Source: a virus | Reading direction: 5' to 3' (one strand) | IMG/VR virus record: IMGVR_UViG_3300036770_006434 | Span: 62,001 to 126,000 of that record | DNA length: 64,000 bases | In this document: one piece after another, positions 5,507-23,910 of the stretch | Layout: each line of letters starts with the position of its first letter | Numbering within the stretch: the stretch's first letter is position 1 | Notes under the pieces: model-generated | Told to the model about the DNA's origin: nothing | Databases searched by the model: none | Seen by the model: only the letters and a program-made list of their open reading frames with translations | Position numbers and translations under genes: made by a program

Positions 5507-7039
5507 TTATAGCAGAGGTCCGCCGCCACTCGGGTCCGGCTGTGCTACGGGAATGCCCATAATCCTATTGCGTTCGACCAAATCGTAGAATGTCGGTGCC
5601 TGCTCACACTCATGGACATTGAAGGTGTCGAAATTGAACAGGAGGTAATTGTCGCAGAACCTGTCCTTCTTGCCGCCTTCTTCCCGGTATTTCACGAGGC
5701 GGTTCTTGTTCATGTCATCCGGCCCAAGGACACGGGTGACCAGCGGGAGGAGTCGGTGCGTGAATTTTACCCGCAAATCCGGGCACATCCTCATTCGATC
5801 CTCTGGCGACATCCTTTCCAAGAGATACACGTTTGAGGCGAACTGCGCGATCATGTCGGAACCACCGATGGCGGCGGTATTCTGGATGCGGGCACCGCCC
5901 TTGGTGTCCTCGTTTTCGCGGTTGGCCTGACAGAAGGTGAGGACTGGCAGATTGAGTTCCTTGGATAGATTCTTGAACGCCTCAATCTTTGCTCCAATCG
6001 ACAGGAATAGCGGGTTCTTGCTCGCGAAATCCGCAGTTCCGCTAAGTTTAATATAGTCAAGCACGATCAACCCCTTCTTCCCCTCTTTCAACGTTTTGAA
6101 GGCCCAGCGGCGGGCGACCGAAATCATGTGTTCAAGACTCTTGCCGCCGACGAAAACGTGGGAGACCCGGCCGGCGAGCGGAGCCAGCGCGGCTTCGGCC
6201 ATCTCCACTTTGCGGCGCATCTCGGGATTGTTCTTATACTTCTTGTATCGAATCAGATACTCCTTGACCCCGGACGCGGCGGCCAACGCGCGCGACTGGT
6301 TCTCCTCCTTGGTCAGCTCCGTGTCCAGAACGAGAGCGCGGAAATTGTCATCCTTGTCCTGCGCGGACAGTTGCCGCAGGGTGGACAGCCAAAACGTGGA
6401 TTTGCCCACCTTCATGCGGGAACACACCACTGTAACGCCCAAGTCCAAGGCTCCATACAGGTCATTCATGACCGGGAACGGCAGGGTTATGGCGCGCTTA
6501 TCGTATACCGTCTCCTGATTGAGAAAATCCCCGACCGTGCCGAACAGGTCGGACGGCTCATCCTCGTCCCGGCCCGACAGCAGATTGATCTTTTTATTGA
6601 AGATTTCCGTCGCCCGTGCCAGCAGTTCTGTAGACTTCAGCGGCTCACTCTCGCCATTGGGCACGTCTTTCCCGGTGAGATTCGCGATTTCCACGGCGGC
6701 TCCATGGATTTCGCGGCGGTTCGCGATCCGACGGAGTTCCCGCGCGATGGATAGAGTGGCCTTCTCGCTGACCGAGAGACCTTCAAGAGATTTGATATAG
6801 ACTCCCGGCTCGATAGAATCCGCTATCTTGATGCCGAGACTACTGAGGCGGTCGGAGAGGAGGTGAACGCTGAACTGGCCGCCGGAGGCCAGACAAGAGT
6901 CTATGCCAGACAATACAACGCGGTTCGTGACCGACAGGTCTTCGGGCCTTACGTGGGTGGTCTCAGCCCTTGTTTCCGGGTGCAGAATGGTGCCGGATAG
7001 GAATTTCTTTTCAAGGTCAATGTTGTAGAGATCGGCCAT
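5507..7039 (-). CDS. DnaB-like replicative DNA helicase
   Basis: 510 residues, usual for the DnaB family. The N-terminal ~110 residues match the DnaB N-domain (VIL-type start, LSDRLSSLGI and ELRRIANRREI helices). The RecA-fold motor has Walker A SRMKVGKST at 207-215, ALVLDTELTKEE, Walker B LIVLDYIKL at about 324-332, and the QANRENEDTKGG...IGGSDMIAQ DNA-binding/sensor segment. It opens with ATG 7039 in ATTTAATGG context. With the adjacent primase it forms the phage helicase-primase pair. Confidence 0.9.
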   Translation of the reverse strand: MADLYNIDLEKKFLSGTILHPETRAETTHVRPEDLSVTNRVVLSGIDSCLASGGQFSVHLLSDRLSSLGIKIADSIEPGVYIKSLEGLSVSEKATLSIARELRRIANRREIHGAAVEIANLTGKDVPNGESEPLKSTELLARATEIFNKKINLLSGRDEDEPSDLFGTVGDFLNQETVYDKRAITLPFPVMNDLYGALDLGVTVVCSRMKVGKSTFWLSTLRQLSAQDKDDNFRALVLDTELTKEENQSRALAAASGVKEYLIRYKKYKNNPEMRRKVEMAEAALAPLAGRVSHVFVGGKSLEHMISVARRWAFKTLKEGKKGLIVLDYIKLSGTADFASKNPLFLSIGAKIEAFKNLSKELNLPVLTFCQANRENEDTKGGARIQNTAAIGGSDMIAQFASNVYLLERMSPEDRMRMCPDLRVKFTHRLLPLVTRVLGPDDMNKNRLVKYREEGGKKDRFCDNYLLFNFDTFNVHECEQAPTFYDLVERNRIMGIPVAQPDPSGGGPLL

Positions 7040-12284: not shown

Positions 12285-13997
12285 TTATTTGGAAATCAGT
12301 CTTTTATAGAGTGTTGCAAATGCTTTTGCGGCGACATCTGGGTCAACACCGTTTCCGAGGAGTCGCAGCTCGTCAGTGCGGGAGAATCCGTGGTTGGTTG
12401 CTTCGTTATAGGCCCGGAGCGTCCACGTCTCTTCGTTAAATTGGGATCGCCATACTTCTTGAATCGCTGGTGGTGTTTCTGACAGAACCCATTGCGCCGC
12501 GCCGGACTCCCGCACGCTTTGCACAGAGAGCGTTCCTTCCACGGGCGCTTCCCCTCTTTCCAGTGCAATTTTGTATGACAGGACGCACAAAGTGTAAGCA
12601 AGTTCTCGGGCGAGTTGTTCGCGGGATTCCTGTCCTCGTGATGAATCCCTAGATTGTCCTCGGAGCCACATTGATGGCAGACCGAATCCTTTAACTGGGT
12701 CGCCCGCTTGTATAGCCCAGACAGCGAAACAGACTCTTTGAGGGAATGCTGTGAACTGCAATCCAGATTGCAGAACTGTCTCCGCAAGAACACCGCCCGG
12801 TCCTCCAGTCGGCCATTGTATCTCTTGCGTTGCATTTCTTTCCCACAATGAGAGCAGTGCTTGATAAGCACGGAGTGTTTGGCTTTCATAGGTTACGGAC
12901 GAACCCACCCTATTGGAAGCCCCATGAGAGAACAAACCCAATCCGGGTTCAACTTGCCCGATTTCGTCGCTCCCGCCCCCTCCGTCTGAGCTGGCAGATC
13001 CTTGGCTTCTCCCTTGTATGCTCGCCCTTGCTGCCCCTTCCAGTCGCGCGTTTGAGGGGTATTCCACTGATTGTGAACCTGCTCCTCCAACCGAAACTTG
13101 CCCGTGTCCATTGTGTTCCCGCCCATCTGAGACCGAGGGGTGCCCCACTGGGCTTGGCCCACTTGTGTCTCCAGATTGGGGAATCGGTCCTGATTCCAGA
13201 CTGACTCGGGAGTGATCGTTGCTGCCATTGCACTGCATGAGCGCGGAGTTGCCCACTGACTTGTGGATGACTCGGGTTGGCTCCCACCACCATTGATCTC
13301 GTCCGGGAGGCTTTGGTCGTAGATAAACGTTCCGTTGTGGTGAACCCATTCCCTCAGATTCCCGCAACCACCCTTGGTTCGCGCGCGATCCAGAGCAGTT
13401 TGACCCTTGGGCGGCACCGTGTCCATCGTGCATGGGGTCGGCCAATTGGGCAAGGATGAAAACCCGCTTCCGTTGATGGCTCGCCCCGATTTCAGCCGAA
13501 CTGAATACTCCTGCCGTTGCTCGGTAACCCACTCGCTCCAGCTCTCTAAGGACATGGAGCAGAACGGGCGTTCCTGCGGGGTCTCGCCAGTCGGTTCCGG
13601 CGAGCTTGGCGCTGATGATTCCCTCGACATTCTCAAGGAAGACGAGTTGGGGCTGGCACTCGGTGATACCTCTGAGGATGTGAGGAAACAGGTGTCTAGG
13701 GTCTTCGTCTCCTCCACGCTTCCCTGCTGCGCTGAAGGGCTGACAAGGGAAGCCTCCAGAGAGGATGCCCACTTTGCCGCGAAAGTCGGCCCAAGGGAAG
13801 GTCTTAACATCCGTCCAGATAGGTGCTGCGTCCAAGAGTCCCGCTTCCATTTTAGCGACCAAGTTCGCACAGGGGAAGGCTTCGATCTCACTAAAAGCGA
13901 CTGTGCGCAGATTGGGGATAACTCGGCTGAGTCCGATATCAATGCCGCCGTATCCGGCACAAAGGCTGATGTGTGTAAAGGCTTTGGTAGAATCCAT
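12285..13997 (-). CDS. DNA (cytosine-5-) methyltransferase, interrupted by a nested HNH gene
   Basis: 570-residue frame. N-terminal C5-MTase motifs are intact: SLCAGYGGIDIGL (motif I, SAM), ENVEG (ENV, motif VI), GFPCQPFSAAGKR (motif IV, catalytic Cys) and ASHQRKRVFILA (QxRxR, motif VIII). The C-terminal motif X is also present, ELRLLGNGVDPDVAAKAF at about residues 538-555. Between them the protein is low-complexity, and from about residue 370 the DNA encodes an HNH endonuclease in another frame. The frame happens to stay open through that insert. It starts at ATG 13997, 5 nt inside the overlapping frame that starts at 14002. Activity depends on whether the inserted segment is tolerated. Confidence 0.75.
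   Translation of the reverse strand: MDSTKAFTHISLCAGYGGIDIGLSRVIPNLRTVAFSEIEAFPCANLVAKMEAGLLDAAPIWTDVKTFPWADFRGKVGILSGGFPCQPFSAAGKRGGDEDPRHLFPHILRGITECQPQLVFLENVEGIISAKLAGTDWRDPAGTPVLLHVLRELERVGYRATAGVFSSAEIGASHQRKRVFILAQLADPMHDGHGAAQGSNCSGSRANQGWLRESEGMGSPQRNVYLRPKPPGRDQWWWEPTRVIHKSVGNSALMQCNGSNDHSRVSLESGPIPQSGDTSGPSPVGHPSVSDGREHNGHGQVSVGGAGSQSVEYPSNARLEGAARASIQGRSQGSASSDGGGGSDEIGQVEPGLGLFSHGASNRVGSSVTYESQTLRAYQALLSLWERNATQEIQWPTGGPGGVLAETVLQSGLQFTAFPQRVCFAVWAIQAGDPVKGFGLPSMWLRGQSRDSSRGQESREQLARELAYTLCVLSYKIALERGEAPVEGTLSVQSVRESGAAQWVLSETPPAIQEVWRSQFNEETWTLRAYNEATNHGFSRTDELRLLGNGVDPDVAAKAFATLYKRLISK
12296..12889 (-). CDS. HNH homing endonuclease nested in the C5-methylase gene
   Basis: 197 residues. 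An N-terminal zinc finger-like part (CSHCGKEM...FCNLDC) is followed by a clear HNH domain: CHQCGSEDNLGIHHEDR, then NSPENLLTLCASCHTKLHW (two CxxC pairs around HH and N). A third cysteine-rich piece, CKACGSPARRNGFCQKHH with QRFKKYGDPN, is typical of phage HNH proteins. The last ~45 codons read through methylase motif X in a different frame and are probably not functional. Start ATG 12889 lies 3 nt after the stop of the overlapping frame at 12893. It appears to have inserted between the methylase target-recognition end and motif X. Confidence 0.8.
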   Translation of the reverse strand: MKAKHSVLIKHCSHCGKEMQRKRYNGRLEDRAVFLRRQFCNLDCSSQHSLKESVSLSGLYKRATQLKDSVCHQCGSEDNLGIHHEDRNPANNSPENLLTLCASCHTKLHWKEGKRPWKERSLCKACGSPARRNGFCQKHHQRFKKYGDPNLTKRRGRSGPITKQPTTDSPALTSCDSSETVLTQMSPQKHLQHSIKD

Positions 13998-14002
13998 GTC
14001 AT
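12893..14002 (-). CDS. Overlapping frame with phage methylase-associated 'WPTP...GWV' protein features
   Basis: 369 codons on the same strand as, and +1 to, the C5-methylase frame, from ATG 14002 (5 nt before the methylase ATG). The translation is not random: WKRDSWTQHL, CSMSLESWSEWVTEQRQEY, repeated WPTP/WATPR/WGTPR/WNTPQTRDWKG segments and the ending LNPDWVCSLMGLPIGWVRP. That ending (L-[NS]-P-x-[FW]-V-x-x-[LM]-M-G-x-P-x-G-W) and the WPTP repeats are known to me from phage proteins found beside or within dcm-type genes. Whether it is an independent product, a frameshift extension of the methylase or both cannot be decided by eye. Confidence 0.55.
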   Translation of the reverse strand: MTWILPKPLHTSAFVPDTAALISDSAELSPICAQSLLVRSKPSPVRTWSLKWKRDSWTQHLSGRMLRPSLGPTFAAKWASSLEASLVSPSAQQGSVEETKTLDTCFLTSSEVSPSASPNSSSLRMSRESSAPSSPEPTGETPQERPFCSMSLESWSEWVTEQRQEYSVRLKSGRAINGSGFSSLPNWPTPCTMDTVPPKGQTALDRARTKGGCGNLREWVHHNGTFIYDQSLPDEINGGGSQPESSTSQWATPRSCSAMAATITPESVWNQDRFPNLETQVGQAQWGTPRSQMGGNTMDTGKFRLEEQVHNQWNTPQTRDWKGQQGRAYKGEAKDLPAQTEGAGATKSGKLNPDWVCSLMGLPIGWVRP

Positions 14003-14013
14003 GTGTTTATATT

Positions 14014-14418
14014 TTACTCTTTGTCCGCCCATTCCGCCATACTCAGCTTCTTGGGCTTAACCTCTGTCTTGGGGGCTTCCCCACTATCCGTCAAACTATC
14101 CAGTATGCCGCATTTGTCAACCCATTTCAGCAAATCCTCTTTCTCCAACTGGTGGGTAACCCAGAACTCGCGGAGGGCGGCCTGACCGTTTTCTGTCAGA
14201 AGATAGGACAGGCTTTCCAGCTTTTCGTGGGGGCGGAGATTGAGCCAAAACACTTCGTCGGGATACGATTTGCGGAGTTTGGACAGGATTTTGAGTTCTC
14301 GGCCCCAGACCCCCGGCTGTCTCAGGGCTTCCGGCTTCAAGAGCCGCGCGAGGATGGAGCAGGAGATTCCGGCGGGGGATAGGGGGTCTATGGGTTTGCG
14401 GAATTTCTTCCAAGTCAT
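14014..14418 (-). CDS. Hypothetical protein, 134 aa
   Basis: Basic-to-neutral soluble protein rich in Leu, Lys and Trp, with a long helical middle (LKILSKLRKSYPDEVFWLNL...EKLESLSYLL) and the tail KKLSMAEWADKE. It overlaps thyX by TATGA (ATG 14418, thyX stop 14415), so it is co-translated with it. No family recognised. Confidence 0.6.
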   Translation of the reverse strand: MTWKKFRKPIDPLSPAGISCSILARLLKPEALRQPGVWGRELKILSKLRKSYPDEVFWLNLRPHEKLESLSYLLTENGQAALREFWVTHQLEKEDLLKWVDKCGILDSLTDSGEAPKTEVKPKKLSMAEWADKE

Positions 14419-16166
14419 AGATTAAAAGCGGCGATAGTGTGCTTGAACGGGTTGCCCTCAATCTCTTTAACAAGTCTCAGCATTTCGGCGACAACCATCT
14501 GCGTTTCCTTTTGGGCATCGGGTTTCAGCCGCAGGTTGCAGAGATGGACGAAAGCGAGAAAACTGCCGGTCCAAATAAAAGTTGTTTCGAGACAGAGAGG
14601 AAGAATGACCCGGCATTGCTCCTTAGCGACACCGAAATCTTCCATTTCCCGGTATAGCTTTTGGGCGGCGTCCACCAGTTCCTGCATTTTAAGCCGGAAG
14701 TTTTGGTTGTCAGACGCTTCAAGATCGCCGGCACTTCCCTGCTTGCTGGACTTGGACTGATAGCGGAGTTGCTCCGGAATATCGTAGGAATCGGAAAAGT
14801 CCACGTATCTGCCCGAAATGGAATTTGCAGAATTGTGAACGACCATGCCATTTGCAACAAAATTTTTCCATTTTCCATCAATTTCAATGTCGTATGTTTC
14901 CTCTGTCCCAATTTTTAAAATTGACACGATTTTTGAAAAACCAACTTTTAAACGAGCCTTAGAGCGGTCTCCAATTCTTTTTTTATAAATGAATGGAACA
15001 AAATCTTTGGAAGAAACTTTTTCTGCAAATTCAATTTCATTTTCCAAGCTAAAATGGATTTTTTTGTGACAATCTTCGCAAACAGTTATTAGATTGTCAA
15101 AATCCATACCTTTTGACGGATTTTGAGCTACTGGAATAATGTGGTGAGCGTGTAATTTGCCACTGCTTTCTCCACATTTTTGACAGGTAAAATTGTATTT
15201 TTTGTGAACATTATGCGCGTTCCGCGTTGACCAAACGGCTATCAAATCCCGATTTTCAGTTATGCCACCTCGCCAAAAATGACTATTCTCTCCCTTTCTT
15301 GCATTATTTTTTGCATGTAATACCTTGTTTTTATAACTCTCTTCTGTAAAATTTAGGGAATAACCTTTTACGTTTTCATTCCAAGGTCTGTTGCCGGGCT
15401 TAAAACAAGTTTCCTCTTTTGAAAAACAAAGATTATGTATTTTAAGCCATTTTCTAATAGTATGATAAGACACTTTGCAATCACATGCCATTTCTTCAAC
15501 AGACATTTTTTTATCTCTGCACAGTTTCAAATAATTATAATCTCTATAGTTTCCATTACCCGCTACGGAAAGCCCATTTGTTGCAATGAAGTCAGCCAGA
15601 CCCAAACCGTCGGTGATAGTTTTCCAACCATCTTTTGTAAAAATCTTATGATCTTTTGAACACTTTAGACTCTTTCCGTCTTGCAGGGTGATTTCATATA
15701 TTTCTTTTACCCCGGATTTGAAGACATTTTTGATATTTGACGTTTCAAAAAAACCATTATCCTCGTTTAAAACCCTTATTTTTCTGCCGCTAATTCTTCT
15801 TTGTTGATATTCTTTGTCTTTGGGCGTGTTCTGGTGGGGGCGACCATTTTCCCATTTTTCATATAAGTCTTTTATCTTTATCTTTTGGATTTTACCAGAA
15901 GCCTGTTTGAAATAGATTTCCGAATCGCCTGACAAACACCAGCCGATTTGGTGCTTAAACAGTTGTCTCTCAACGAAGATCGCGCATTTTACTCGGAACT
16001 GCAACTGGGAATGGCGGAAGGGCGACGTATGATTGTGGGCGACAAGGTATTTCAGAAGTTTTTCGTCCTTTTCGTCAAACGCTTCCTTGGTCTTCCCGTA
16101 GCTAACGCGGGCCACGTTCGCGGCCATCAAATCGCCGCCAAAATAGTCTAGGAGTTCGGCCTTCAC
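14415..16166 (-). CDS. thyX: FAD-dependent thymidylate synthase ThyX containing an intein
   Basis: 583 residues, of which 214 are ThyX exteins (1-76 and 446-583), the usual ThyX size. Joined, they restore the ThyX signature: KHQIGW + SANSISGRY aligns position by position with RHRxxASxNExSxRY, though RHR is KHQ here. ThyX makes dTMP from dUMP with methylene-THF, NADPH and FAD. The start is GTG 16166, overlapping the upstream stop (GTGA). Residues 77-445 are an intein that must splice out for activity. It works with dut (8617) and RNR (20552, 21622) in the phage nucleotide pathway. Confidence 0.92.
   Translation of the reverse strand: MKAELLDYFGGDLMAANVARVSYGKTKEAFDEKDEKLLKYLVAHNHTSPFRHSQLQFRVKCAIFVERQLFKHQIGWCLSGDSEIYFKQASGKIQKIKIKDLYEKWENGRPHQNTPKDKEYQQRRISGRKIRVLNEDNGFFETSNIKNVFKSGVKEIYEITLQDGKSLKCSKDHKIFTKDGWKTITDGLGLADFIATNGLSVAGNGNYRDYNYLKLCRDKKMSVEEMACDCKVSYHTIRKWLKIHNLCFSKEETCFKPGNRPWNENVKGYSLNFTEESYKNKVLHAKNNARKGENSHFWRGGITENRDLIAVWSTRNAHNVHKKYNFTCQKCGESSGKLHAHHIIPVAQNPSKGMDFDNLITVCEDCHKKIHFSLENEIEFAEKVSSKDFVPFIYKKRIGDRSKARLKVGFSKIVSILKIGTEETYDIEIDGKWKNFVANGMVVHNSANSISGRYVDFSDSYDIPEQLRYQSKSSKQGSAGDLEASDNQNFRLKMQELVDAAQKLYREMEDFGVAKEQCRVILPLCLETTFIWTGSFLAFVHLCNLRLKPDAQKETQMVVAEMLRLVKEIEGNPFKHTIAAFNL
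14832..15938 (-). mobile_element. ThyX intein with HNH homing endonuclease domain
   Basis: 369 residues. It begins with Cys77 (block A CLSGDSEIYF), has block B CSKDHKIFTKDGW, and ends with block F/G YDIEIDG...ANGMVVHN, followed by Ser as +1 nucleophile. Inside lie a helix-turn-helix (MSVEEMACDCKVSYHTIRKW), a NUMOD3-like GENSHFWRGG and an HNH domain (CQKCGESSGKLHAHHIIP ... ITVCEDCHKKIH). It is visibly AT-richer than the exteins, so it arrived separately. The site splits the flavin/dUMP-binding motif of ThyX, a classic conserved-site target. Confidence 0.92.
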
Positions 16167-19748: not shown

Positions 19749-20552
19749 TTAAGTATCACTGAAAAGCGCCGATTCAGAGAAGTCAGAGTTTCTCATGGGT
19801 ATATACCTATTTTCCACTATCGTATCGTTAAGAATGTCTTCTTGAGGTTTGTCCCAGCGTTCAAAAGACGCGCGCCTAGTGTTGTGAATGTCGCGACACA
19901 TAAAATAAAACCAACTCTCCTTATTGTCTATCTTGCAGCGATTTACGGCAGAGTGAAGAATTTGAATGTTGTCTTTGGTGTATCCTTTTGAAGAGTCAAT
20001 GCGATCTACAGATGCGGTTGTTTTGCCCTTTAGACGAAAGGTTACTTTCCACCCGGTGAGAGCGCATCGCTTGCCCTGTTTGATATATTGATCCCAAACA
20101 TCTTTCTCTGTAATTTCAAAGGCCAAACCACGCGCAAGCGCCCCTCTCAATACGCTTTTCCATCTGGAATTAGGTATCGTTTTATATGGCTTTTTATGGA
20201 TGCCCTTTTTGGCGGCTCCAATACCATAGGCTCTGGAAACTACTGCCGATATGGTTTTGCCCAATTTTTCGGCGCAATATCGAGAACCATGCTCTTGATA
20301 ATTTTGAAGAACAAAAGAATCCTGCTCTTCTGTCCAAGTCTTTTGCGATTCGTCGTAACATTTTCTGCATCCATGTCCACCCCAAAGGTCGGAGGCGACA
20401 ACCTTGAACTCTCCATGTGTGGGGCAATTCACGAAAACGCTTTGACCACTTCCGGCATACACAGATTTTGAATAATCGTATTTGTCTCCGTGAACCTCTT
20501 TTGCGCGATTTACAAAATCCTCCTGAGTTAACTTTAATTTTGGCTTATCCAT
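19749..20552 (-). CDS. Homing endonuclease with DUF723-like zinc domain and HNH-like domain
   Basis: 267 residues. Residues 8-65 (FVNRAKEVHGDKYDYSKS, then CPTHGEF and HGCRKC) form the zinc-bearing recognition domain often attached to phage homing endonucleases. A SANT/HTH-like piece follows (WTEEQDSFVLQNYQE). The C-terminal part has CALTGWKVTF ... ASVDRIDSSKGYTKDNIQ, the HNH variant also seen in the gene at 35084. It is AT-rich relative to nrdB, which it follows immediately with a TAATG overlap. It presumably targets an RNR gene. Confidence 0.75.
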   Translation of the reverse strand: MDKPKLKLTQEDFVNRAKEVHGDKYDYSKSVYAGSGQSVFVNCPTHGEFKVVASDLWGGHGCRKCYDESQKTWTEEQDSFVLQNYQEHGSRYCAEKLGKTISAVVSRAYGIGAAKKGIHKKPYKTIPNSRWKSVLRGALARGLAFEITEKDVWDQYIKQGKRCALTGWKVTFRLKGKTTASVDRIDSSKGYTKDNIQILHSAVNRCKIDNKESWFYFMCRDIHNTRRASFERWDKPQEDILNDTIVENRYIPMRNSDFSESALFSDT

Positions 20553-21607
20553 TAGAGTTTGAATCCTTCAAAAGTAGAATCGGTCACATCATTTGTAACG
20601 CCCTTGACGTAAGCAGCGCCTTCCGTCTCTTGTGGGGCCACCTGAATCTTGGTAGAATCATAAAACCCGTCCAACCAGCCTGAAAGCGGGTTATGCTTGG
20701 TATCATACAGTTTTTTGTAACCCAGTGACATGAGACGGTTGTTGGCCAGCCATTCAATGTATTTCTTCAGAGAATCCGGGGTGAGCCCCACAAGGCTGCC
20801 ATGCGAAAACAGGTAGTCAGCCCATTCTTTTTCGGCTTCAACCGCCGCGCGGTAGAATTCATAGACCTTGTCTTCGTTCTGTTTTACAATGGTCTGAAAC
20901 CCTTCGTCGGGATTTTCCTCCCAATTCTTCATGATATTCTGCGTGATGGCGACGTGAAGGTTTTCGTCTCGGGAAATGAGCCCGATGATCTTACCGTTGC
21001 CTTCCATCTTCTTGCGGTAGCGGAAGTAGAAAGAGCAGGCGAAAGACACGTAAAACGTAAGACCTTCAACGATTTGCGTAGACAAAACCGCGTCGAATAT
21101 CTGCTGCCGGGGATCGTCAGAAGGCGTGATCAGCGAATCGTATTTATTGGCAATAAATTCCGCTCGCTTGACGATTTCTTTGTCCCCCAAAATGGAGTCG
21201 AAGAATTTCGTGGCGTCAGGATATACGTTTTCAAGGATATACGTGTAGCTATTGGAATGAATCGTCTCAAAGAAACTCCACGTATTCATGCAGATTTCCA
21301 GCTCGGAATTGGTGCAGAAATCCAACAGTTTGCCGATAGACCGACTCAGCATGGAGTCCGTCATGGTCTGAAAGCGGATGTTGGAATCAAAGACAAAACG
21401 CTCTTCGTCAGAAAGCATTTTGTAGTCGCCAATGTCTTTAATCAGTGAAATCTCCTGCGGACGCCAGTAGTAGTTAAGTTGCTGATTATAAAGATCATAG
21501 AACTTCGGGTATTTCTTGATGTCATACCGCTGAAGCGCCAAGTCTTCGCCCAAGAACATTGGGTTGCGCAATAGGTCAATGTTTTGCTTATTGAGAACTG
21601 TTTTCAT
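20552..21607 (-). CDS. nrdB: Ribonucleoside-diphosphate reductase class I, beta subunit
   Basis: 351 residues, the normal length. Di-iron ligand helices are visible: DEERFVFDSN region, WSFFETIHSNSY (E and H), STQIVEGLTFYVSF (E) and SRDENLHVAIT (E and H). The radical tyrosine lies in the SNSYTYILENVYP helix. The C-terminal tail DSTFEGFKL ends with hydrophobic residues suited to docking on NrdA. With nrdA 14 bp upstream it provides dNDPs for phage replication. Confidence 0.95.
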   Translation of the reverse strand: MKTVLNKQNIDLLRNPMFLGEDLALQRYDIKKYPKFYDLYNQQLNYYWRPQEISLIKDIGDYKMLSDEERFVFDSNIRFQTMTDSMLSRSIGKLLDFCTNSELEICMNTWSFFETIHSNSYTYILENVYPDATKFFDSILGDKEIVKRAEFIANKYDSLITPSDDPRQQIFDAVLSTQIVEGLTFYVSFACSFYFRYRKKMEGNGKIIGLISRDENLHVAITQNIMKNWEENPDEGFQTIVKQNEDKVYEFYRAAVEAEKEWADYLFSHGSLVGLTPDSLKKYIEWLANNRLMSLGYKKLYDTKHNPLSGWLDGFYDSTKIQVAPQETEGAAYVKGVTNDVTDSTFEGFKL

Positions 21608-21621
21608 GTAATTTTAGAGAG

Positions 21622-23910
21622 TTAGATTGCACAGGCACCGGATTCACAAGATTGACCGCGATCAACAGTCTCTGGAATTTTGTGCTTCGTTTCTGACGCC
21701 GTCTGGCGGTCCCCGTCATCCGTGTTAGCGTAATAGAGGGATTTGAGACCATATTTGTAGGAAAGAAGGATGGTATGGATGATCTCGGAAAGCGGCGTCT
21801 TATTGTCCTTGTGCTTGCTTGGAACGTGATAGGTGTTGGTGGAAATAGCCATATCCGTGAACTTTTGCGCAGCAGCCGAAACCTTTAGCACCCCCTCGTT
21901 TGAGGGCATGTCAAAGGCCATGGTATAATTCTCCTTCCATTTCTCAATGCCCGGCACGACCACCGGGATACTGCCACCCTTAGAGGTCTTGATGGAAATC
22001 AACTGGCGAACGGGCTCAATACCATTGGTGGAAGACTGAACGACACTGCTGGACTCGGCTGGCATGATTGCGGTAAGAGTGGAGTTTCGGATGCCGGTTG
22101 CAAGCAATTTTTTGCGAAGCGCTTCCCAGTCACAGTGGAGGGGCTCTGTGACGAATTCGTCAATATTCTTGCAATACGTGTCGATAGGCAGGATTCCTTG
22201 AGTGAACTTGCTATCAGCCGCTTTTTCGCAGGGTCCAAACTCCTTGGACAGTTCAGCGGAGGCGTCAATCAGGTAGTAGCTGGTCTTTTCCATCCAGCGG
22301 GCCACAATATTGGGCGCTTCGGGGTCATAGTATTTCACGCCCTCTTTCGCAAGTAGCGCAGCCACATTGGTAATTCCCACCCCGAGGCTTCGGCGCTTCT
22401 TGGCAAAATTCTCCATCGCCGGCAGTTTGTATACCTGATGGTCGATAAGAGAATCCAACATGCGAACGATAACGTCACAGACCGACTTCATATCGTTATC
22501 ATCCCGGATTTCCAGCCAGTTCACAGCGGCCAAGACACAGACGCCAATTTCTCCATTGGGGTCTTTTAGGTCTTCAATAGGCTTCAATGGGTGGGAGACC
22601 TCCAGACAGAGGTTCAGGGTATCAACATGCAGGTTCCATGATCCATGGTCATTTACGTGATCTACTGCCATAGTGTAGATACGCGTCGTTTCGCTTCTCT
22701 GTTTGGCGAGAAGGTTCATCAGGTCACGGGCTGGCACCTTCTTCTTGAATTTGATCGTCTTGTTCTTTTCCGCCTTCTCGTAAACATCTTTGAAGCTCGG
22801 CAGGCCGAAGTTATCCCACACCTCTGGAACCTCATGATAGGAAAATAGCGTGACATCCTGATTGTTCAGGAATCGCTCCAAAAACAGTCGGTCAATGCCG
22901 ATGACGTAGTCCAGTTTGCGAACTCGGTTATCGTCCGTTCCCGAATTGTCTTTGAGCACCAAAACCTCTTGAATGTCGTGGTGGAACCAAGCGATATTGA
23001 CCGTGCCGCCGCCGCCGCGAATCCCGTTTTGCTGACAGGACTTTACCGTGGACTCATACATCTTGAGATAGGGGACCACGCCGGTATGGGTCAGCGTGCC
23101 GTTTTTGACCGGGGCATTGATAGCGCGTATGCGTGAAACGTTAAGGCCGATACCGTAGCGGTCGGCGGTGGCGAATCCAATGGCAGAATTGTTGGCAAAA
23201 ATGGATGGTAGCGTATCGTCAATGGCAAAAAGAGCGCAAGAAGCGTAGCTCTTCAGGTTTGATCGGACGCCCGCCATAATCGGGGTGGGCAGGTTGATCT
23301 TGTGTTTGCTGAAGTAGTTGTAAGCCTTTTTGACGTATTCCATGCGGTTGTCACCGTAGTCTTGGAAAAAGACCATGGCGACAAGGATATACATGAACTG
23401 TGGAGTTTCGTAAATCTTTCCAGTAGAACGGTTTTGGAGGAGATACTTGTCGCACAGCTGCCGGATTCCGGCGTAGGCGAAGTTCAGGTCGCGCTCGTGC
23501 TTGATGTATTCGTTAATCTTCCCGATTTCCCGCTCGGAATACTTCTCAAGAATTTGGGCGTCATAAACCCCGTGCTTGATGTTATCCTTGATGACGTGAA
23601 GCAGCGTAGGCGCGTCCTTGCCGCCCCAAACCTCTTTTCGGAGATGGTAATTGACCAGTCGGCCTGCGACAAACTGATAATTCGGCTTTTCCTCGGAAAT
23701 CAGTCCGGCGGCAGCCTCGATCAACAGCGTGTGGACCGATTTGGACTCGATCCCATCGAAAAACGTAAGATGAGCATTCATAGCCACTTCCTCAAAGGAA
23801 ACGTCCTTGATTCCGTCAACGGCCCATTCAAGGACCTTGTTGATTTTTTCAGCCGAAAACTTCTCCAGTTTTCCGCTCCGTTTTTTGACCAGAATGTCTT
23901 TTTTGCTCAT
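21622..23910 (-). CDS. nrdA: Ribonucleoside-diphosphate reductase class I, alpha subunit
   Basis: 762 residues. An ATP-cone is present at the N-terminus (VKKRSGKLEKFSAEKINKVL), then the catalytic barrel with the finger-loop NLCLEVSHPL (N, C and E of the active site), SCALFAIDDTLPS with the active-site cysteine, and a redox tail ending CESGACAI, very like the tail of E. coli NrdA. The allosteric cone implies dATP control. A GTGTAAC motif lies 46 nt before the ATG, and an AT-rich TATTAT precedes it closely. Confidence 0.96.
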   Translation of the reverse strand: MSKKDILVKKRSGKLEKFSAEKINKVLEWAVDGIKDVSFEEVAMNAHLTFFDGIESKSVHTLLIEAAAGLISEEKPNYQFVAGRLVNYHLRKEVWGGKDAPTLLHVIKDNIKHGVYDAQILEKYSEREIGKINEYIKHERDLNFAYAGIRQLCDKYLLQNRSTGKIYETPQFMYILVAMVFFQDYGDNRMEYVKKAYNYFSKHKINLPTPIMAGVRSNLKSYASCALFAIDDTLPSIFANNSAIGFATADRYGIGLNVSRIRAINAPVKNGTLTHTGVVPYLKMYESTVKSCQQNGIRGGGGTVNIAWFHHDIQEVLVLKDNSGTDDNRVRKLDYVIGIDRLFLERFLNNQDVTLFSYHEVPEVWDNFGLPSFKDVYEKAEKNKTIKFKKKVPARDLMNLLAKQRSETTRIYTMAVDHVNDHGSWNLHVDTLNLCLEVSHPLKPIEDLKDPNGEIGVCVLAAVNWLEIRDDNDMKSVCDVIVRMLDSLIDHQVYKLPAMENFAKKRRSLGVGITNVAALLAKEGVKYYDPEAPNIVARWMEKTSYYLIDASAELSKEFGPCEKAADSKFTQGILPIDTYCKNIDEFVTEPLHCDWEALRKKLLATGIRNSTLTAIMPAESSSVVQSSTNGIEPVRQLISIKTSKGGSIPVVVPGIEKWKENYTMAFDMPSNEGVLKVSAAAQKFTDMAISTNTYHVPSKHKDNKTPLSEIIHTILLSYKYGLKSLYYANTDDGDRQTASETKHKIPETVDRGQSCESGACAI

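Follow-up and report, generated by a model that had tools for sequence, protein, structure and literature searches.

The window analysed here is a stretch of 64,000 nucleotides (bases 62001-126000 of a virus record of 190,671 bases), and on its minus strand three open reading frames, A, B and C, lie over one another in what appears to be a cytosine methyltransferase locus (Table 1). Frames A and B had been described in an initial annotation, and their coordinates, phases and quoted peptides, together with the spacing of 5 nt between the two ATG codons, were found to be as given there. The third frame, C, had been overlooked; its ATG is placed 3 nt past the stop codon of B (TAACCTATG), and its own stop codon lies shortly upstream of that of A. 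C is in the frame of B and runs over the C-terminal third of A. Since C covers what B leaves of A, almost all bases of A are double-coding.

Table 1. Overlapping reading frames and sequence features of the candidate methyltransferase locus (positions in the window).
Feature	Position	Strand	Remarks
Frame A	12285..13997	minus	570 aa; ATG 13997, end 12285; candidate catalytic subunit of a C5-cytosine methyltransferase
Frame B	12893..14002	minus	369 aa; ATG 14002; +1 to A; proposed target-recognition subunit
Frame C	12296..12889	minus	197 aa; HNH endonuclease (PHROG match)
Paired overlapping start codons	13995..14002	minus	ATGACATG: ATG of B, then ATG of A 5 nt downstream
Methylase motif I region, frame A	13929..13979	minus	FTHISLCAGYGGIDIGL; conserved in the alignment of A
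Methylase motif IV, frame A	13731..13757	minus	GGFPCQPFS, with the catalytic Cys
Methylase motif VI, frame A	13620..13637	minus	LENVEG
Methylase motif VIII, frame A	13449..13475	minus	QRKRVFILA
Methylase motif X, frame A	12318..12380	minus	RTDELRLLGNGVDPDVAAKAF; 3' of B, under the end of C
First WPTP-type repeat, frame B	13433..13444	minus	such repeats also in relatives of B
Later repeat WATP, frame B	13244-13255	minus	
Later repeat WGTP, frame B	13136-13147	minus	
Later repeat WNTP, frame B	13055-13066	minus	
Motif-IX-like segment, frame B	12905..12955	minus	KLNPDWVCSLMGLPIGW

Protein A has the features of the catalytic chain of a C5-cytosine methyltransferase. Residues 7-187 match the Pfam family DNA_methylase (PF00145, 5.9e-32), and the PHROG methyltransferase families 363 (3.6e-50) and 116 were also recovered. 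These matches, along with an alignment of relatives in which residues of motifs I, IV (PCQ), VI (ENV), VIII and X are invariant, bear out the methylase motifs initially assigned to this frame. Motif X occupies residues 540-560, with an invariant GNG at 548-550. AlphaFold predicts for A a Rossmann core (residues 7-187) and a motif X helix (553-569), both with pLDDT of about 85-95, joined through a linker (195-368) with pLDDT of about 30-50 that is predicted to be disordered, and the best Foldseek matches of the model were M.HaeIII and M.HhaI. Between motifs VIII and X the protein is weakly conserved in the alignment, as well as disordered in the prediction, and the linker holds one conserved block, W-P-x-R-P-G-x-x-Q-x-x-W-E-P-P-R. 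No motif IX was seen in the alignment of A; a motif-IX-like segment sits in B.

Protein B has a high content of Ser, Thr and Pro and bears the WPTP-type repeats already noted in the initial annotation; a profile search, as proposed there, matched B to PHROG 1008, 'DNA methyltransferase' (1.7e-9). Motif X of A, rather than B, is matched by the final part of this PHROG profile, and this sharing of one family between B and the last motif of A was the first sign of a single enzyme divided between two chains. The alignment of B ends in KLNPRWVETLMGLPVGW, which falls in register with motif IX of Dcm (RLTPRECARLMGF); the match is modest (hhalign P = 0.034, a single comparison), with motif X collinear. 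L351, N352, V356 and W366 of B are invariant among 68 sequences. The Pfam DNA_methylase search recognised neither B nor those of its relatives that carry motif X, a comparison of the B profile with PDB sequences gave a spurious match only, and the AlphaFold model of B alone is of low confidence (pLDDT 53). The N-terminal half of B has no counterpart in standard methylases. The WPTP-type repeats of B are probably the recognition region.

Relatives were collected by a protein search with B over virus contigs, which returned 244 stretches, 80 of which were fetched. B is +1 to the catalytic part of A in all 80, and nearly all of them have motif X in frame A again. A start pair of the form ATG...ATG/GTG (ATGTG or ATGACATG among its forms) is kept in 78 of 81 loci, the ATG of B preceding the start codon of A by 5 nt in 38 loci, by 2 nt in 32 and by 8 nt in 8. 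A Shine-Dalgarno-like core is found upstream in 53% of the loci, against 26% in shuffled sequence, with a median spacer of 5 nt to the ATG of B.

Avoidance of stop codons was evident in both directions. In the window, none of 500 synonymous shuffles of B kept A open, with 5.6 stops expected; two open frames at once are thus far from a chance outcome, and they are found again in nearly all relatives. Over the later part of B, 78 loci contain 10 A-frame stops, as compared with 512 expected from synonymous shuffling of B, and eight of the 10 come from two atypical loci: L033, which may be an indel case, and L049, which has motif X in frame B. When A was shuffled in the same 78 loci, 227 B-frame stops were expected over its catalytic part and none was observed. 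These loci are mutually related, so that the counts are not independent events, but many of them share just 40-60% protein identity.

Both frames show lowered divergence at fourfold-degenerate sites when compared with neighbouring single-frame genes of the same amino-acid identity. For A it was 0.36 against 0.44 at 75-80% identity and 0.21 against 0.35 at 85-90%, and for the later part of B it was 0.25 against 0.51 at 60-65%. The similarity of B also exceeds that of synonymous shuffles when the A proteins are only 53-60% identical (z 4.6-7.4); between the window and phage C75C1, with A 58% identical, B is 36% identical, versus 26% in shuffles (z 4.9). A leave-one-out score of B gave a mean z of 12, which is inflated by common descent, and weight was thus put on the stop counts, the fourfold sites and the distant pairs.

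These sequence comparisons make it virtually certain that both frames are coding. The initial annotation had offered, as one of two options, that a single stretch of ~1.1 kb is overprinted by two selected proteins, and this option is upheld by the two-way avoidance of stops, with further backing from the fourfold sites, the paired starts and the recurrence of the arrangement in distant phages. The test suggested along with it, a search for stop codons of B in relatives or for constraint in a single frame, was run and left overprinting standing. There is next to no chance that A is the sole gene and B a passive open frame generated by the codon use and amino-acid bias of A. Richness in Ser, Thr and Pro, as seen in B, is indeed common for shifted frames, but a passive frame is contradicted by the stop counts, the slow-down at fourfold sites and the start-codon pair, and the homology of B extends through its later part, in which frame A is the one that is weakly conserved.

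The large domain of C5 methyltransferases is built from motifs I-VIII and X, and the small domain from the recognition region and motif IX; the frame switch at this locus thus coincides with the domain border. Such enzymes can be divided between chains, and the small-chain reading frame of M.EcoHK31I is nested inside the large-chain gene in another frame. The large subunit of M.EcoHK31I carries motifs I-VIII and X, the small subunit carries motif IX only, and the recognition domain was reported on the large subunit (PMC3404938). In M.AquI, the catalytic and recognition parts are on two chains, and motifs IX and X are both on the small one (PMC3404938). By motif layout, the locus in the window is likened to M.EcoHK31I, with I-VIII and X on A and motif IX, through a modest match, on B. 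It differs in that B is fully overlapped, starts ahead of A and has WPTP-type repeats, in the added HNH gene, and in its candidate for the recognition region, which is the repeats of B and not a part of the large chain. With M.AquI the locus would share the division of catalysis and recognition between two chains; the M.AquI placement of both IX and X on the small chain is seen only in some of the relatives (L124, L132, L217 and Arthrobacter phage Andrew gp43/gp44). Motif X is on B in a few relatives (L049, L098, L124, L132, L154, L217 and Andrew gp44).

The motif split, the relatives with motif X on B and the precedents of M.EcoHK31I and M.AquI led us to propose that the locus encodes an overprinted two-subunit C5-cytosine DNA methyltransferase, a reading drawn from sequence and analogy to which we give a probability of roughly three in four. 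A would be the catalytic large domain, containing motifs I-VIII, followed by a largely disordered linker and completed by the motif X helix, and B the small domain, with the WPTP-type repeats, probably for recognition, and motif IX. The order of motifs I-VIII, target-recognition region, IX and X would thereby be kept along the DNA, with the part for recognition and motif IX displaced into the +1 frame. Having one initiation region with start codons 2-8 nt apart, both proteins may be made from a single mRNA. We infer that A and B bind to each other to give the active enzyme, that B recognizes a target sequence on the DNA, and that the enzyme methylates the phage genome, most simply for the purpose of restriction evasion.

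The second option of the initial annotation was a programmed +1 frameshift from A into B near position 13440, which would yield a longer methylase with a recognition part derived from B. The collinear order of motifs along the DNA fits this proposal, as does the fact that A runs into B at a natural domain border, yet we regard it as highly improbable. A shift needs neither the conserved start codon of B nor its 185-codon N-terminal part, which is open in every relative (the 0 against 227 stops given above); frame A remains open and partly conserved beyond the junction; motif X, encoded again in frame A, would be missing from the shifted product; and a conserved slippery site combined with a stop was not found at the junction. 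The accompanying remark on a different target-recognition part holds insofar as B is probably the recognition part, but as a separate subunit and not as a frameshift product.

B might instead be genuine and overprinted but serve a separate function, such as DNA binding or anti-restriction, and be no subunit of the methylase. Speaking for this are the missing fold match, the lack of a significant Pfam match for B alone and the N-terminal half that standard methylases do not have. We consider it unlikely, given that the motif-IX-like end is on B and absent from A, that motif X has a place on B in some relatives, an arrangement most easily understood as a split enzyme, and that sites with B and without A are few, several of them being contig ends or indels.

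Frame C matches the HNH endonuclease family PHROG 1271 (3e-13) and, below the curated cut-offs, Pfam HNH_3 (6e-4) and HNH_2 (7e-4). Nine further virus loci (L022, L077 and L087-L093) have HNH relatives at this site, between the stop codon of B and motif X, and frame A is open across the HNH region in all nine; in L089 the head of A has an upstream break. Over the HNH gene in eight loci, 66 stops would be expected in frame A and none was observed, whereas the third frame contains the usual number. Between loci, this region is 77% identical in C and 72% identical in A, and fourfold-site divergence in C is 0.26, compared with 0.44 in single-frame genes of similar identity. The absence of A stops, the conservation of A and the slow fourfold sites of C together indicate that A is maintained under the nuclease gene, and A and the HNH gene thus form a second overprinted pair. 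The nuclease gene occupies the space between the stop of B and motif X, with A kept open and conserved throughout it.

It is very unlikely that A, B and the HNH gene form a small restriction-modification unit, with C as the cutting partner. The HNH gene, where present, is always at the same place beside A and B, as such a unit would have it, but it is missing from most relatives (of the 80 loci retrieved with B, just 2 have it), and C resembles phage HNH proteins generally. A better fit is provided by a nuclease of the homing type that invaded the locus. Four of the HNH loci (L022, L077, L087 and L088) have a distinct variant of motif IX in B, WVC.LMN.PVFWVKP, as if the HNH insertion and the end of B had co-evolved. 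In L093 (2559-3333), B and the HNH gene are fused in a single reading frame, apparently by deletion.

The distribution of the arrangement was followed by scanning IMG/VR with a DNA pattern for WVEWLMG, which gave at least 121 sites and represents a motif-based sample, not a census. Among the sites listed, 105 of 121 have an A-phase reading frame with methylase motifs over more than half of B, and nine more have an A-phase frame of like extent over B without a recognised methylase motif. At the 105 sites the mean cover of B by the A-phase frame is 98%, against 13% for the third frame. About 13% of the listed sites are without an A frame bearing recognised methylase motifs, some of them being indels or contig ends, and two B-frame reading frames contain motif IV themselves, which are presumed to be indel or recombinant cases. 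Three of the four bacterial genome matches to B (L095, L096 and L097) are from Geminisphaera, Pedosphaera and Verrucomicrobia bacterium assemblies, a hint at the host group.

The same phase of A and B occurs in 13 named phage or plasmid loci, including Salmonella SEN4, Burkholderia BcepC6B, Pseudomonas PMG1, Bacteroides BS-TP4, Acinetobacter ABMM1, Lactobacillus Lc-Nu and Paenibacillus phages, and in three E. coli prophages. Mostly A alone is annotated in the named loci. This is the case in the nearest named phage, C75C1 (DNA methyltransferase, OQ984151), which has the same phase (A is 50% identical over residues 4-216, and B, along its full length, 27%) and differs from the window in that B and motif X are not separated by an HNH gene. 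In Pseudomonas phage PMG1 (L101, 1371-2201), B alone is annotated, as 'DNA methyltransferase', with no annotation for the catalytic frame A. In E. coli O103:H2 12009 (L235, 792-1805), an annotated cytosine methyltransferase of 337 codons conceals a +1 frame of 305 codons with LNPAHSRWLMGLPPEW close to its end. Both frames are annotated as DNA cytosine methyltransferase in the Paenibacillus larvae phages Bloom, Jacopo and their kin (BLOOM_56/BLOOM_57), where B is nested +1 in A and motif X is in A, as in the window; unlike in the window, B is without the long N-terminal part and the HNH gene is absent.

On balance, we lean towards the overprinted two-protein enzyme being a main form of C5 methyltransferase across phages of several bacterial phyla, with many of the annotated ones lacking their recognition subunit, and towards one branch in which a nuclease entered the overlap, so that ~1.7 kb, nearly all of it double-coded, would specify three proteins. 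To our knowledge, long same-strand overlaps with both proteins under constraint have rarely been documented in dsDNA phages, and a literature search among open-licence papers found no description of the A/B overlap in phages. Annotation pipelines usually retain one frame, and the hidden one probably holds the part that chooses the sequence to be methylated; an annotated protein cloned alone would thus be inactive or unspecific. The two-subunit reading predicts which phage and prophage methyltransferases require a second protein, and the locus would be a naturally occurring case of an enzyme whose two halves impose mutual constraint on their shared DNA.

Near the methylase locus, an intein-split thymidylate synthase gene, thyX, lies on the minus strand (window 14415-16166), and its intein (PF14890, 9e-18) bears an HNH domain of its own, as the methylase locus bears an HNH gene. 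Elsewhere in the window, the small and large chains of ribonucleotide reductase are encoded side by side on the minus strand (20552-23910), and a DnaB-type helicase is found at 5507-7039.
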